The translations under genes and the position numbers were made by a program. Positions 5,164-35,133 of a stretch of 39,405 bases of DNA are shown in pieces. Source of the stretch: Bacteroidota bacterium (lineage in GTDB: Bacteria; Bacteroidota; Bacteroidia; B-17B0; Aurantibacillaceae); NCBI GenBank assembly GCA_947487905.1, contig CANLAV010000007.1, forward strand, positions 1-39,405, in the 5' to 3' direction. How positions within the stretch are numbered: the stretch's first letter is position 1; each line of letters opens with the position of its first letter. The notes under the pieces are model-generated. The model was not told the origin of the DNA, did no database searches, and saw only the letters and a list, made by a program, of their open reading frames with translations.

Positions 5164-8100
5164 GTACTTTTTGAATGACTTGAACTTGTCAGTTTAATAA
5201 TATATAATCCTTTTCCAAATGCGCCTAAGTGTATTTCTTTTTTCATTTCTTTAGATAATTGAGGAATGTTTTCACTGTAAAGGATTTGACCAATGGCGTT
5301 ATAAATATCTAATGTGTAGTTTTCACTACTCACCGAGGTAACTACAATATTGATTTTTCCAGTTGTAGGATTTGGAAACACTTGATAGGTAGTTTGTAAA
5401 TCAGTATCGGTTAGCCCCGTATTTAAAGGACTCACAATGTTTATGTTATCTAAATAAATTGCTTGTCCATAAAATCCTCTATTCTGAAAAGCAAAGATAA
5501 CGTTAGGTTGTCCGGCATAAGTAATTAAATCAACAGTGTCAGTTTCCCATTGTGAAGAATTTGGTACAAAGATTGCCGCAGTTTCATCTGGAGCTGTTGC
5601 TAATTGAATATCTCCTTTATTGTAAATTTGAGTAAATGTAACGCCGCAGTCTGTTGAAACTAGCACTGCTAAGGTATCTGTATTAGCCCCACTATAGCGC
5701 GCATAGGCTCTATCGAAAAATAATTTTGGATGAATGGCTGATGTGAAATTAAATTTCGGCGACCTAAGTTCATCCCGTTTGCGGTTAACATCATTATTGT
5801 AATTATCAAAAAATACAGATGCTGTGCTTAATCCAAAACCACCAATAGTATTGCTATGTTGCCAGGTAACGCCATCATTTCCTTTATCAATATTTTCCCA
5901 ATTGATTGGTGTAACGGTTGAGGTAAAACCTTCTGAATAGGGCAAAGATTGAGGTGTTACAACGTTGATATAAGCCGTTTCTGTCAAGGAATTTGGTCCA
6001 TTTACATTTGAAACAGTTAAGCTTACATTATACATGCCAGATGCTGAATACGTAATGACTGGATTTTGTAAGGTTGAGGTTGACGGTGTTCCCCCAGGAA
6101 AATTCCAATTCCAACTGGTTGGTGTGGGTGTTCCAATACTAAGATCTGTAAACGTAACCGTTTGACCTGCACAAATACTTTTAGCACTAGCATTGAAAAT
6201 AGGAGCAGGAGGCATACTTGTATTAATTGGTAGTTCCCAAACACCTCGTCCGTAATAACCAACTCTTAATAAACTAGCAGCATTGCCTACGTTGTAAAAC
6301 ATAAAGTCTTGAATAGGGGCAATGGTTGGTAAATTGTAGGTCATGTTTGTCCACGATGACATCGTTATATCTTTATAATAAACTCCACTGGCATTGCACA
6401 CATACATGGCTTCATTGGCGTTAAATTCATCGTGATATATTTTTAAAATATTGATGGTTGGTAAGGTTAATGTAACGTTTGTCCAAGTAGCGCCTTTGTT
6501 TGCCGATCGGTAAATTTTATTTCCACAAGAGATGTAAACAACATTTGAATTTGTTTTAATACTTGCAATATTGGCAACTATACTTGTTCCTGCTGGTGTA
6601 TTGTAATTTGTGAAGGTTGGAGTGGTAGATAAAGCATTATCACTTCTGTAAATTTTTCCTGCCGCTGTTATTACATATAGTAAATTTGAATCTTTAGGCG
6701 AAGAATGTATCGCCATCACTTTTTGATTAAAGTTTGAAATTTTTGTCCAAGTTGGACTTGTATTATTTAAATCAGTTGTACGCCAAACATCTTGTTCGCC
6801 AGAAAAACAAAGGTTCGGTATTTTTTTTTTGAATTCTAAAACAATGTTATCTGTAGCTGTAAATGGTAGGTTATAACTTACTTCAGATCCTGTGACAACA
6901 CGTCTATTTCCATTACCATGATAATACACTACATTATTTGTTTGGTAATCAAATGATGCTCTTGCACCCCAATCGCCTCCACGATTGGTTTTCCAGGTGT
7001 TTGAAGCATAAAATAATTCACCATTATCTTGTGTTCCAATACTAATCATATCTCTCTTAATTGGACTCTGAGCAGCATGATATATTTCTGTAGCACTTAA
7101 GCTATCACATTTAGGAAACCAATTATCACCATCATCATTACTTAACCAAACACCGCCATCGTTGCTATTAAATAATTTATTTGTATACGTTGGATGAAAT
7201 TTAATTTCATGCATATCAGTATGCAATTGTGCCCACCAATCCGTTAGTTTTGCCCATGTAATACCACCGTCTGTGCTTCTCCAAACAACATGTGCAACTA
7301 CAAAAACAGTATTGGCATCGGTTGGATCAGCCGTCATACTAAAATTGTAATTGCCCTGCCCGCCGCCTGTTGCATCATAACCAACTAAACTTTGTGAGGG
7401 ATTGTTGTATACAGTTGTAAATGTATTTCCTCCATCGATTGATTTCAAAATAGTTCCTTCATCTTTAATCATTCCAATATAAACAACATTAGGATTAACA
7501 GCACTTAATGCTAATCGCATGCCGTTTCCACTTCCACCTCCAGGAATGACAACTCCAGCAGTAATTTGAGCCCATGTTAAACCAAAGTCGTTTGATTTCC
7601 AAAATTGAGAGGATGTTACTGCAAATAGTGTATTTGTTGTGCCGTGTTTTAATTGCATATCTTGAAAATCACCTCCTGTTTTTACTAAGGTCCAATTTGC
7701 ACCAGCATTCGTTGTTCTATAAATTCCATTATCTGTAGCAGCAACCAAAACGTTAGCGTTAGTTGGATCCATCAAAATTTCAATAGCTAATCTATTTCCC
7801 ATCCCAGTTGTGGATTGTAGCCAATTCAAGCCTCCGTCAATACTTTTCCAAACTCCGAAATCAGTTCCATAATAATTTGCGTCGCCTGTTCCTAAGTATA
7901 AAATATTATCGTTGGTATGATCAACACAAATTGATGCACACGCCGATTGTGGCAATTTATCAGTTCCTGTTTTTTTCCAAGTTGTAGCTGTGTCAGAACT
8001 TATCCATAATCCGCCCGATGCACTTACAGCATACATTTTATTTGGATTTGTAGGATGGAATTTTATTTGACTTACACGTCCAATCCCATTTATTTGCCCG

Positions 8101-11337: not shown

Positions 11338-13380
11338 ATGACGAACAATCCTTTTCTTTCTGATTTCAATACGCCTTTTGATACGTATCCTTTTGATAAA
11401 ATTAAAGTTGAACATTATTTACCAGCCATCGAAGAAGGCATTAAGCAAGGTTTAGCAGAAGTTGATGCGATTAGTCATAATCAAGAAACACCTAATTTTT
11501 CAAATACCATCGAAGCTTTAGAAAAAGTGGGTGGATTGATGGAATTAGTAAGCTCTGCGTTTTTTAATTTAAATTCTGCAGAAACATCAAAAGAAATGCA
11601 GGAATTAGCAAAAGAAATTTCTCCGAAGTTAAGCGATTATTCAAATGACATTATGTTGAATGACGCACTTTTTAAACGTGTGGAATTAGTTTACACTACA
11701 AAAGATTCATTAACGTTAACACCAGAACAACATACTTTACTGAATACAACTTATAAAAGTTTTGTGCGTAATGGTTCAACATTAAATGCAGAGCAAAAAG
11801 AAAAAGTAAGAGCCATTGATAAAGAAAAATCACATTTGTCATTAGTATATAGCGAAAATGTATTAGCTGAAAGTAATGGGTATGAATTGGTAATTACTAA
11901 TTCAGCTGATTTATCAGGCTTGCCCGATGGTATTATCGAAGCAGCTAAACTTACGGCCACCGAAAAAGGAAAAGAAAATACATGGGTGTTTACTTTAGAT
12001 TATCCGAGCTACGGACCTTTTATGACGTATTCGGACAACAGAGTATTGAAAGAGCAATTATTTAAAGCGTATGGTTCTAAGGCATATAAAAACAATGAGC
12101 ACGATAATCAACAAGTCTTAAAACAAATAGCTGTTTTAAGACATGAACGCGCTGTGATATTAGGTTATAAATCGCATGCCGATTTTGTGTTAGAAGAACG
12201 CATGGCTGAATCTCCAAATAAAGTAGTTGCCTTTTTAGAAAATTTATTAGACAATTCTTTATCCTTTGCTAAAGAAGAGTTAGCAGAATTAAAAGCGTAT
12301 AGTCAGTCTATTGGTGGCCCATCAGATATAAAAAGATGGGATGTGACCTATTATGCCGAAAAATTAAAAAAAGAAAAATTTGCTATTGACGATGAATTAC
12401 TGCGCCCGTATTTTAAATTAGAAAACGTGATTGCTGGTGTTTTTGAAATAGCCAAAAAATTATATGGTTTATCATTTGTTCAAAGAAATGATATACCGTT
12501 ATATCATAAAGATGTAACGACCTATGAAGTAAAAAATGCAGCTGGCGATTTTTTAGCTGTATTTTATGCTGATTTTTTTCCACGCGCAGGAAAGAGTCAA
12601 GGCGCTTGGATGACAGCTTTTAAAAATCAAAAAATAGTAAATGGCGTAAACGTCAGGCCTCATATTTCTATCGTTTGTAATTTTACCAAACCAACCGAAA
12701 GTAAACCTTCTTTGTTAACGTTCAATGAAGTCACAACATTATTTCATGAGTTTGGACATGCTTTACATGGCATGTGTGCAAATACACAATACGCGAGTCT
12801 TTCGGGAACAAGTGTGTATTGGGATTTTGTTGAATTACCTTCTCAAATTTTAGAAAATTGGTGTTATGAAAAAGAGTGTTTAGATTTATTTGCTAAACAT
12901 TATGTAACTGGAGAAACAATACCTTCTGAGTATATTCAAAAAATAGTTGACTCATCCAATTTTCAAAGTGGCTTAGCTACTATCCGACAAATTGGTTTAG
13001 CTACGTTGGATGTGGCTTGGCACAGTCAAAATCCTAAAGATGTTACAAGCATAAAAGATTTTGAAACACAGGTTACATCAAAAACAGATTTAATGGAACC
13101 CGTTTTAGAAACAAGTATCTCATGTTCTTTTTCTCATATTTTTTCAGGTGGTTATTCTTCTGGATATTATTCCTACAAATGGGCTGAAGTTATTGATGCA
13201 GATGCCTTTGAAGCTTTTAAGGAAAAAGGAATTTATAATAAAGAAGTGGCTGATTCGTTTCATGATAATATTTTATCTAAAGGTGGAAGCGAACATCCAT
13301 CTATCTTATATAAACGTTTCAGAGGCAGAGATGCTGATCCGAAAGCTTTATTAAGAAGAGCTGGTTTAGTAAAACCATAA
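11338..13380 (+). CDS. dcp: M3 family metallopeptidase (peptidyl-dipeptidase Dcp-like)
   Basis: At 680 residues this has the normal length for the Dcp/oligopeptidase A branch of family M3. The zinc site HEFGHALHG is at about residues 470-478 and the third ligand Glu499 is in DFVELPSQ. The N-terminus (NPFLSDFNTPFDTYPFDKIK) matches the family opening. It has no signal peptide, so it acts in the cytoplasm and trims short peptides, probably including those brought in by peptide transporters. Dcp removes C-terminal dipeptides while PrlC/OpdA cuts internally; the sequence alone does not settle which. It is transcribed from its own promoter and converges on ridA through a shared hairpin. Confidence 0.9.
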   Translation: MTNNPFLSDFNTPFDTYPFDKIKVEHYLPAIEEGIKQGLAEVDAISHNQETPNFSNTIEALEKVGGLMELVSSAFFNLNSAETSKEMQELAKEISPKLSDYSNDIMLNDALFKRVELVYTTKDSLTLTPEQHTLLNTTYKSFVRNGSTLNAEQKEKVRAIDKEKSHLSLVYSENVLAESNGYELVITNSADLSGLPDGIIEAAKLTATEKGKENTWVFTLDYPSYGPFMTYSDNRVLKEQLFKAYGSKAYKNNEHDNQQVLKQIAVLRHERAVILGYKSHADFVLEERMAESPNKVVAFLENLLDNSLSFAKEELAELKAYSQSIGGPSDIKRWDVTYYAEKLKKEKFAIDDELLRPYFKLENVIAGVFEIAKKLYGLSFVQRNDIPLYHKDVTTYEVKNAAGDFLAVFYADFFPRAGKSQGAWMTAFKNQKIVNGVNVRPHISIVCNFTKPTESKPSLLTFNEVTTLFHEFGHALHGMCANTQYASLSGTSVYWDFVELPSQILENWCYEKECLDLFAKHYVTGETIPSEYIQKIVDSSNFQSGLATIRQIGLATLDVAWHSQNPKDVTSIKDFETQVTSKTDLMEPVLETSISCSFSHIFSGGYSSGYYSYKWAEVIDADAFEAFKEKGIYNKEVADSFHDNILSKGGSEHPSILYKRFRGRDADPKALLRRAGLVKP

Positions 13381-13403
13381 TGGTTTTGCAAAATTAATAA
13401 CAT

Positions 13404-13440
13404 AAAAAAACCTTCAAGAATTTCTTGAAGGTTTTTTTTT
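13404..13440. terminator. Bidirectional terminator between the M3 peptidase and ridA
   Basis: CCTTCAAGA (13411-13419) pairs with TCTTGAAGG (13423-13431) across a 3-base loop. The stem is flanked by seven As on the left and nine Ts on the right, so it has a U tract in both directions. Confidence 0.9.
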
Positions 13441-17229: not shown

Positions 17230-17874
17230 TTAAAATGATGAAATGGTTAACATCTCATCATTTTCTTTTACAAAAAATCCACGTTCAGTGTGGTTCATAA
17301 AATGAATCATAGCCAAAGCTACTTGCACATCATAAATTGCTCTGTATTTTTTAGGAATTAAAAATGAAAGTGAAATCATGAAAAATTTTACAATAAGTTC
17401 ACCAATTCTAAATTCTTTACGATTCCCTAAAAGTAATGAAGGACGAATGACATAGGTAGAATCAAAACCAATCGCTTTAATGGCTTCTTCCATTTCTCCT
17501 TTTGTTTTATTATAAAATATGTTAGACTGTTTATCTGCGCCCATTGAAGAAACAACAGCAAAATGATTGATTCCATTGCCTTTTGCAGCCTTTGCAACAT
17601 TCACAACATAATCTAAATCTACCTTACGAAATGCTTCTTTGCTACCCGCTGTTTTTATAGTTGTGCCTAAACAACAAAATAAATCATCACCTTTTAAGAG
17701 TGTGTTATCAATAGCATCATAATTAAAAATGTGTTGTTTTAATTTGGGATGGTTGATGTTTAATGGTTTTCTAACTAAAATAATGACTGTTGAATAGGTA
17801 TCATTTTTTAATAAGTGTTCAGTTACTTTTTTTCCAATTAATCCAGTTGCTCCTAATACGATAGCTGTTTTCAT
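17230..17874 (-). CDS. Atypical short-chain dehydrogenase / NAD(P)-binding protein
   Basis: This 214-residue protein has an N-terminal Rossmann loop, AIVLGATGLIGKKV, with the Gly-x-x-Gly-x-x-Gly pattern of atypical SDRs. The middle contains VVSSMGAD and a Tyr-x-x-x-Lys-like segment (YNKTKGEME). The length and the C-terminal IRPSLLLGNRKEFRIGE fit the HTATIP2/YbjT-like group of NAD(P)-binding epimerase-like proteins. Substrate unknown. Its last codons form one arm of a hairpin facing the convergent outer-membrane protein gene. The space upstream, between it and ligA, holds a structured repeat element. Confidence 0.82.
   Translation of the reverse strand: MKTAIVLGATGLIGKKVTEHLLKNDTYSTVIILVRKPLNINHPKLKQHIFNYDAIDNTLLKGDDLFCCLGTTIKTAGSKEAFRKVDLDYVVNVAKAAKGNGINHFAVVSSMGADKQSNIFYNKTKGEMEEAIKAIGFDSTYVIRPSLLLGNRKEFRIGELIVKFFMISLSFLIPKKYRAIYDVQVALAMIHFMNHTERGFFVKENDEMLTISSF
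17232..17264. terminator. Candidate hairpin terminator inside the 3' end of the SDR gene
   Basis: AAAATGATGA (17232-17241) pairs perfectly with TCATCATTTT (17255-17264) over a 13-base loop. It lies 38 bases past the plus-strand outer-membrane gene and inside the last codons of the minus-strand SDR gene. The flanking T runs are only four long, so strength is uncertain. Confidence 0.5.
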
Positions 17875-17933
17875 TTTTTATTATTTTGATTAGGTTCGAT
17901 GTAAGATAGGATTTTAATTATTTTTCCGTTTCC

Positions 17934-18016
17934 ATGCGAGACAGTCTTTTCGTTTCAATCTTTTGAGCTTCGCAAGCTCAGCTATCAAAAGGATTTTCTC
18001 GTCAATCCTTAACGCC
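17934..18016 (-). repeat. Structured intergenic element, copy B, downstream of ligA
   Basis: On the minus strand it starts 5 bases after the ligA stop. The order is GATTGACGAGAAAATCC, then TTTTG, a perfect GAGCTT-GCG-AAGCTC hairpin, CAAAAGATT, and CGAAAAGACTG. The outer arms AATC-C-TTTTG and CAAAAGATT pair with one bulged C. The same plan occurs at 35056-35133. It could be an RNA element in the ligA 3' UTR or a dispersed repeat. Confidence 0.6.
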
Positions 18017-18021
18017 AAAAT

Positions 18022-20094
<2,073 letters not shown>

Positions 20095-34922: not shown

Positions 34923-35005
34923 CATTTGCAAAGAGTTTTTGATAAAAATAAGGTTTGTTGTTGACATGGTTTTGTAAATAAGTTTTTACTCGTTTAAAAA
35001 GTCAT

Positions 35006-35039
35006 AAAAGGCTATCTCTTTTAGAAGGGATAGCCTTTT
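35006..35039. terminator. Orphan hairpin with terminator shape
   Basis: AAAAGGCTATC (35006-35016) pairs with GATAGCCTTTT (35029-35039), and two inner pairs can extend the stem. It is flanked by As and Ts. No gene on either strand ends here, so it may end an unannotated RNA starting near 34934. Confidence 0.6.
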
Positions 35040-35055
35040 AAATTATAATTAATAT

Positions 35056-35133
35056 CCTAGCCCTGATTGAAGCGGCATCCTTTTTGTCTTTTTTTTAAAG
35101 GCAAAAAGATATAGCGGAAAGCAGGAACTAGCT
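35056..35133 (+). repeat. Structured intergenic element, copy A
   Basis: Read on the plus strand: CTAGCCCTGATTGAAGCGGC, ATCC, a TTTTTG/CAAAAA stem with one bulged C, GATATAGCGGAAAGCAGGA, then CTAG. The ends close with CTAG/CTAG and CCTG/CAGG. I recall very similar sequences between genes in many Flavobacteria. The Rfam Flavo-1 RNA is one candidate name, not verified. Copy B is at 17934-18016. Confidence 0.65.

Follow-up and report, generated by a model that had tools for sequence, protein, structure and literature searches.

The window analysed here, a 39,405-nt stretch of a Bacteroidota contig (CANLAV010000007.1), carries two structured intergenic elements, copy A on the plus strand and copy B on the minus strand, the latter lying between ligA and an NAD-epimerase-like gene (Table 1). 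As described in the first-pass annotation, both copies read GATTGA, a short spacer, an (A)ATCC-TTTT(T)G arm, a hairpin, a CAAAA(A)GAT arm and a CGnAAAG tail, and in both the arms pair with one bulged C. When the window was subjected to the Rfam scan proposed in that annotation, copy A was identified as Flavo-1 (RF01705; cmscan, 79.8 bits, E 3.2e-16) with the whole 76-position model matched, while copy B reached 36.3 bits (E 3e-4; 17935-18020, minus strand) and thus stayed below the gathering cut-off of 42 bits that copy A exceeds. With R1, a covariance model of 32 elements that included neither window copy but had two rows from elsewhere in the same genome, copy B scored 47.7 bits (E 1.1e-9; span 18018-17920) and copy A 32.0 bits (E 8.6e-6), demonstrating that the shared design goes beyond chance. 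Copies A and B are two subtypes of one family, copy A belonging to subtype I and copy B to subtype II. Copy A has the ends TAGCCCTG...CAGGAACTAGCTCC and is devoid of the hairpin P3; T-A/C-G covariation between orthologous copies was seen in its outer stem, and its 3' tail, judged by sequence and composition, corresponds to the conserved CGCCCAA tail found in subtype II. Copy B has the ends GCGTTAAGG...AACG and is degenerate, as its P3 is decayed and its central R-Y pair consists of GA facing AC (G-C plus an A.A mismatch).

Table 1. Coordinates of the two Flavo-1 copies, their parts and neighbouring features in the window.
Feature	Position	Strand	Basis or remark
Copy A, Flavo-1 subtype I (without P3 hairpin)	35055..35132	+	cmscan RF01705; R1
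Copy A outer stem, 5' strand AGC	35059-35061, pairs with GCT 35131-35133	+	sequence
Copy A outer stem, 5' strand CCTG	35062-35065, pairs with CAGG 35122-35125	+	sequence
Copy A 5' arm GATTGAAGCGGCATCC(bulged C 35080)TTTTT	35065..35085	+	sequence; central R-Y pair 35072-35073
Copy A 3' arm AAAAAGATATAGCGGAAAGCAGGA	35103..35126	+	sequence, RF01705 alignment; central R-Y 35114-35115
Copy A 3' tail AGCTCCAA	35130..35137	+	sequence, tail composition
Copy B, degenerate subtype II	17920..18020	-	RF01705, R1, intact orthologue in congener G083
ligA	18022-20073	-	neighbour of copy B
NAD-epimerase-like gene	17230-17874	-	neighbour of copy B
Terminator-like hairpin AAAAGGCTATCTC...GGATAGCCTTTT	35005-35043		strong, bidirectional; just upstream of copy A
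Region with intrinsic terminator AACCTTCAAGAA...TTCTTGAAGGTTTTTTTT	13290-13440		downstream of M3 peptidase gene; RNA-family matches overlap the terminator

Two further structures were noted in the window. The terminator-like hairpin upstream of copy A is common to the window and the congener G082, which is without copy A. Sub-threshold matches to His_leader and other RNA families overlap the intrinsic terminator behind the M3 peptidase gene and are probably merely this terminator.

In the source genome (an assembly of 2.45 Mb in 205 contigs, 95% complete) 30 Flavo-1 matches were obtained at E <= 1e-3, some of them in local arrays such as four copies at C1:23120-23577 and two at C52:4835-5084. 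Side-by-side comparison of these copies gave TAGCCCTGATTGAAGCGGCATCC...GATATAGCGGAAAGCAGGAACTAGC for subtype I and GCGTTAAGGATTG...AAAGCCTGGCCGAAGGCAACGCCC for subtype II. Subtype II has a conserved CCCAAA tail, and both of its arms are GATTGNARYGNAAANCC. Elements end in (Y)GCGTTAG...CGCCCAAA or in TAGCCC...AGCTCC. In two Flavobacterium-like complete genomes (L307-L336) many subtype I copies are directly preceded by an extra box, TTCTTTTGAAAAC, which makes the repeat unit of these genomes longer than RF01705. Subtype II copies from distant genera repeatedly show the apical loop motif GAGGNACGA (for example L104, L106, L109, L128, L143 and copies of the source genome), which suggests loop subfamilies common to several lineages.

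One strand of Flavo-1 folds into a long irregular helix, in which GGG/CCC is followed by a GNA/GNA internal loop, covarying R-Y/R-Y pairs, a second GNA/GNA loop, AAUC/GAUU with the bulged C, and a variable apical stem. In most copies outside the Rfam-like subtype this helix is part of a three-way junction that also comprises the outer stem P1 and the hairpin P3, both missing from the RF01705 model. For 32 aligned copies from many genera, RNAalifold recovered P1 (GCGTT/AACGC), P2 and P3 unprompted, with both sides changed in 13 of 24 pairs; as these copies were picked partly for a P1 match at 4/5 positions, the P1 counts are biased while those of the other stems are not. Pairing amounted to 97.6% as compared to 85.3% after shuffling, with 96 versus 25 doubly changed cells, and none of 500 shuffles was as high. 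The result was the same for 66 additional copies, taken from six other genomes, with 99.5% pairing and 231 doubly changed cells, figures to be read with caution because this alignment was fitted to the model. Across 142 distinct elements the central pair was GT/AC in 52, GC/GC in 50, AC/GT in 14 and AT/AT in 7. In the same elements G.U mismatches outnumbered A.C mismatches in the apical stem (28 versus 10) and in P1 (6 versus 0); it is thus the plus strand that folds, be it as RNA or as single-stranded DNA. Membership of Flavo-1 is thus reflected in a conserved helix with covarying pairs. The first-pass annotation had tied its proposal to the presence of further genomic copies and of covariation, and both were found.

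Copy number ranged from 0 to >140 per genome and, among congeners of one genus, from 0 to 47+. In a phylum-wide sample of 296 genomes, RF01705 was detected in 38 at E <= 1e-6 and R1 in 35 at E <= 1e-8. By a DNA-pattern search the element was found in Flavobacteriales, Sphingobacteriales, Chitinophagaceae and MAGs labelled Spirochaetales and Leptospirales. Three termite-gut spirochaete MAGs yielded at least 141, 145 and 150 R1 matches, lower bounds because 150 candidates were scored per MAG; the Leptospirales MAG gave 92 R1 matches and two Bacteroidota genomes gave about 150, each among the candidates scored. Binning error is possible for single contigs, but cannot plausibly account for so many spirochaete and Leptospirales copies, and the closed replicon p74 of Leptospira biflexa also harbors one copy (63.4 bits). 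Plasmid copies span Bacillota, Pseudomonadota, Bacteroidota and Spirochaetota, with 79.8 and 75.9 bits in Paraclostridium bifermentans, 53-63 bits in Moraxella and about 52 bits in Bacteroides/Phocaeicola; they were found with a subtype II query, whereas copy A alone as query gave no plasmid matches. The searched E. coli genomes contained no element and the searched phage records no match, and among viral contigs the 5' arm pattern occurred in five, four of which had the full element. Hence the earlier suggestion of a known widespread Flavobacteria element was right as to the family, Rfam Flavo-1, and too narrow as to its hosts, since fitting elements are carried by other phyla and by plasmids.

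On MOB-F plasmids of Moraxella bovoculi, M. ovis and M. catarrhalis the element adjoins the TrwA/TraD/MobF genes; it lies towards the leading region and on the strand opposite to these genes, the position of oriT being inferred from gene order. The Moraxella element retains P1, the GNA helix, P3 and the tail but has a different long stem in place of the UCCUUUU/AAAAGA part. The M. bovoculi plasmid (L465:35875-40703) contains four near-identical 300-nt direct repeats across the leading region with one element each; the four elements are identical and lie inside the duplicated 300-nt segment. A plasmid of Acinetobacter indicus (L466:3800-4090 and 7345-7640) carries two near-identical large hairpins, which have only P1 and P3 in common with Flavo-1 and are each located upstream of an antirestriction gene cluster.

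Chromosomal elements are mostly intergenic and lie among housekeeping genes in either orientation; in spirochaetes, simple ORF calling gave an overlap with an ORF of 90 aa or more for 14 of 21, a result that high G+C may render spurious. Clustering of the flanking ORFs revealed no recurrent neighbour gene or gene cassette. No bias between sense and antisense was detected, with 10 versus 15 among newly fetched loci and 21 versus 23 among earlier loci (31 versus 38 in total), and divergent and convergent intergenic sites were both common. Gene 3' ends were slightly preferred, the median distance being 55-66 nt as compared to about 100 nt for 5' ends. Copies were distributed over the replichores without significant bias (41 versus 28, p 0.15; two complete genomes, terminus placed approximately), and 104 elements showed no clear excess of target-site duplications over shuffled partners. 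In the congener G082 the copy A site is empty, with 38 nt in place of about 146 nt and a flank identity of 88-89%, and the element is also missing from the orthologous site in G083, each species being represented by one genome in this comparison. The simpler reading is an insertion of copy A in the source lineage, with a deletion as a possible alternative. For copy B, an intact orthologue is present in G083 and no more than a remnant in G082, indicating that copy B is older.

Several subtype I copies occupy a shared locus in related species. Five congeners have one near a DegT aminotransferase gene and four have one near bioA, and several are common to the two Flavobacterium-like complete genomes. 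Among these orthologues the arms were 0.74-1.00 identical and the 60-nt flanks 0.43-0.83, with compensatory changes in the apical stem. In the pair L328/L329 the change from AC/GT to AT/AT kept the rare GATCG signature, a combination for which conversion alone hardly accounts. Conserved arms together with compensatory changes in place point to selection on some copies, and some Flavo-1 copies therefore appear to be constrained in place.

The first-pass annotation had offered two readings, a structured RNA and a mobile repeat. Copy number, arrays, the lack of orientation or replichore bias, the lack of target-site duplication, the empty copy A site and the spread on plasmids favor a mobile-type repeat over an RNA gene, and the strong covariation fits that proposal as well. 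With moderate confidence we regard Flavo-1 as a repeat family, interspersed, palindromic and non-autonomous, that behaves like REP sequences and works as a folded single strand, with some copies apparently kept in place. A trans-acting enzyme would use the fold, formed by single-stranded DNA or possibly by RNA, as its substrate for copying the element to new sites, and the fold would be conserved because only folding copies spread. Settled copies, such as those near the DegT aminotransferase gene, bioA and gcvT, may later have been kept by selection or gene conversion, and on Moraxellaceae conjugative plasmids the same fold was maybe recruited as a leading-region single-strand site. Against this reading stands the better conservation of arms than of flanks with compensatory changes, suggesting a cellular function and not selfish spread alone; in addition, no mobiliser was found by the RAYT searches described below, no insertion was observed between strains with one genome per species compared, and some copies adjoin RAYT genes. 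A bolder version, which we put forward only tentatively and consider less likely than not, would make Flavo-1 a class of mobile palindromic repeats that spans several phyla, has a three-way-junction fold of its own, is moved as a folded single strand by an unrecognised enzyme other than RAYT and has been recruited on conjugative plasmids as a leading-region single-strand element.

The constraint on settled copies could also mean that Flavo-1 is a structural housekeeping site of DNA or RNA, for example a transcript 3'-end structure, a transcription barrier or a landing site for a host protein. Duplication and gene conversion would then have spread the site, and selection would have kept it. Conserved arms with compensatory apical stems at orthologous sites and the slight preference for gene 3' ends agree with such a role, and the GGATTGNARYGNAAATCC arm is itself an inverted repeat. 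We nevertheless consider it unlikely, as some close relatives have zero copies, two congeners lack copy A at its site and the spread across phyla is patchy.

Somewhat less probable still is that Flavo-1 elements are small RNA genes or cis-acting RNA regulators, as implied by their Rfam type 'Gene; sRNA'. The strong single-strand covariation with tolerated G.U pairs, the conserved arms of subtype I copies at the same locus in related species and the finding that, of 30 copies sampled in two Flavobacterium-like complete genomes, 19 precede a gene of the same direction would be in line with an RNA. However, the classifiable elements showed no orientation bias, and so lack the consistent orientation to a regulated gene expected of a cis-regulatory RNA; no common promoter was seen upstream by eye, and >140 copies per genome and the occurrence on plasmids also argue against RNA genes. 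In RNA-seq of F. psychrophilum, Flavo-1 lay 'indistinctly' sense or antisense to transcripts, with many copies outside transcripts, and no functional clue emerged (PMC9723704). A box upstream of Flavobacterium copies, TTCTTTTGAAAA, was rejected as promoter owing to its inconsistent spacing to a -33 box.

The published description of the Bacteroidetes subclass 2.6 of Y1/RAYT transposases as flanked by 'atypical secondary structures' (Quentin et al., PMC6006769) hinted that Flavo-1 might be a REP sequence moved by this subclass, and two subclass 2.6 genes adjoin a Flavo-1 element (L260, L246). However, subclass 2.6 was missing from 11 of 18 Flavo-1-rich genomes, including G079 (99% complete, 41 Flavo-1 matches) and G061 (100% complete, 43), and a profile search for PF01797 found no match in the source genome, G061, G079 or the spirochaete G391. 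Most of the subclass 2.6 genes read were flanked by other palindromes, e.g. GCGCACGGATTGCAAATCCGCGCGAACGGG, rather than by Flavo-1. Next to L245, L248, L255 and L257 such short palindromes have a GAACGGG or GAGCGGGG tail and are likely, as read from the sequence, the cognate REPs of these RAYT genes. An element within the fetched stretch was present at 5 distinct of 61 Y1 loci, by rough estimate not far from the expectation from copy density. The repeat was not seen to flank a cognate RAYT gene, and the element ends show no GT[AG]G foot at the hairpin base. As profile, neighbourhood and a dedicated alignment all left RAYT/Y1 unsupported as mobiliser, we consider this origin very improbable.

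Equally improbable, in our estimate, is that Flavo-1 as a whole derives from conjugative elements, where it would act as a single-strand DNA promoter or priming site of the Frpo/ssi kind, with further copies scattered over chromosomes. Known Frpo sites occupy leading-region positions (PMC11541004) such as that of the Moraxella MOB-F element, and the A. indicus element sharing P1/P3 lies upstream of two antirestriction operons; this resemblance to Frpo single-strand promoters provides a lead. Chromosomal copies, however, sit outside any leading region between housekeeping genes in either orientation, and the Paraclostridium and Leptospira plasmid copies are without such a layout. Three further candidates were dismissed: IS200-like movement (no significant lagging-strand bias, which would be expected), a DDE-type MITE (no target-site duplication) and an integron attC site (wrong box order by sequence, no R''...R' arrangement and no cassettes).

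RF01705 has been without function since 2010 and is annotated as small RNA in many genomes. If Flavo-1 is a dispersed folding repeat, these annotations should change, and surveys that count it among the most abundant sRNA families (PMC9029176) count a repeat; if the mobile-class reading is true, an Rfam 'sRNA' family is a class of transposable repeats. The extended fold and its model make the class findable outside Bacteroidota, and because RAYT is missing in copy-rich genomes, what moves Flavo-1 becomes a direct question. In the literature searched, no description of the extended fold, the cross-phylum range or the missing RAYT link was found.

Compared with known systems, copy A shares with Flavo-1 RNA (RF01705; Weinberg et al., 2010) the same arms, bulged C and apical stem. 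The Rfam model covers the subtype without P3, whereas P1, P3 and the CCCAAA tail of the main subtype fall outside it, and the 2010 table lists Bacteroidetes only (PMC2864571), in contrast to the three further phyla reported here. Like REP/BIME sequences (TnpA-REP, RAYT), Flavo-1 elements are short, palindromic and intergenic, occur in high and variable copy number, in either orientation and in local arrays, and lack target-site duplications; unlike these simple hairpins they form a three-way junction with GNA/GNA loops, end without a GTRG foot and have no matching RAYT in many copy-rich genomes. DDE MITEs are likewise non-autonomous and dispersed with imperfect terminal complementarity, but differ in that Flavo-1 lacks both a target-site duplication and, as far as found, an autonomous parent. 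With attC sites Flavo-1 has imperfect palindromes, extrahelical bases and variable loops in common, whereas its boxes read 5'-GTTAG...AACGC-3' and not 5'-AAC...GTT-3', with no gene cassettes between copies. Finally, Frpo/ssi sites, compared by position and fold, resemble Flavo-1 in being folded single strands with mismatches and in the leading-region position that Flavo-1 has on Moraxellaceae plasmids, whereas Flavo-1 is set apart by its dispersal on chromosomes.
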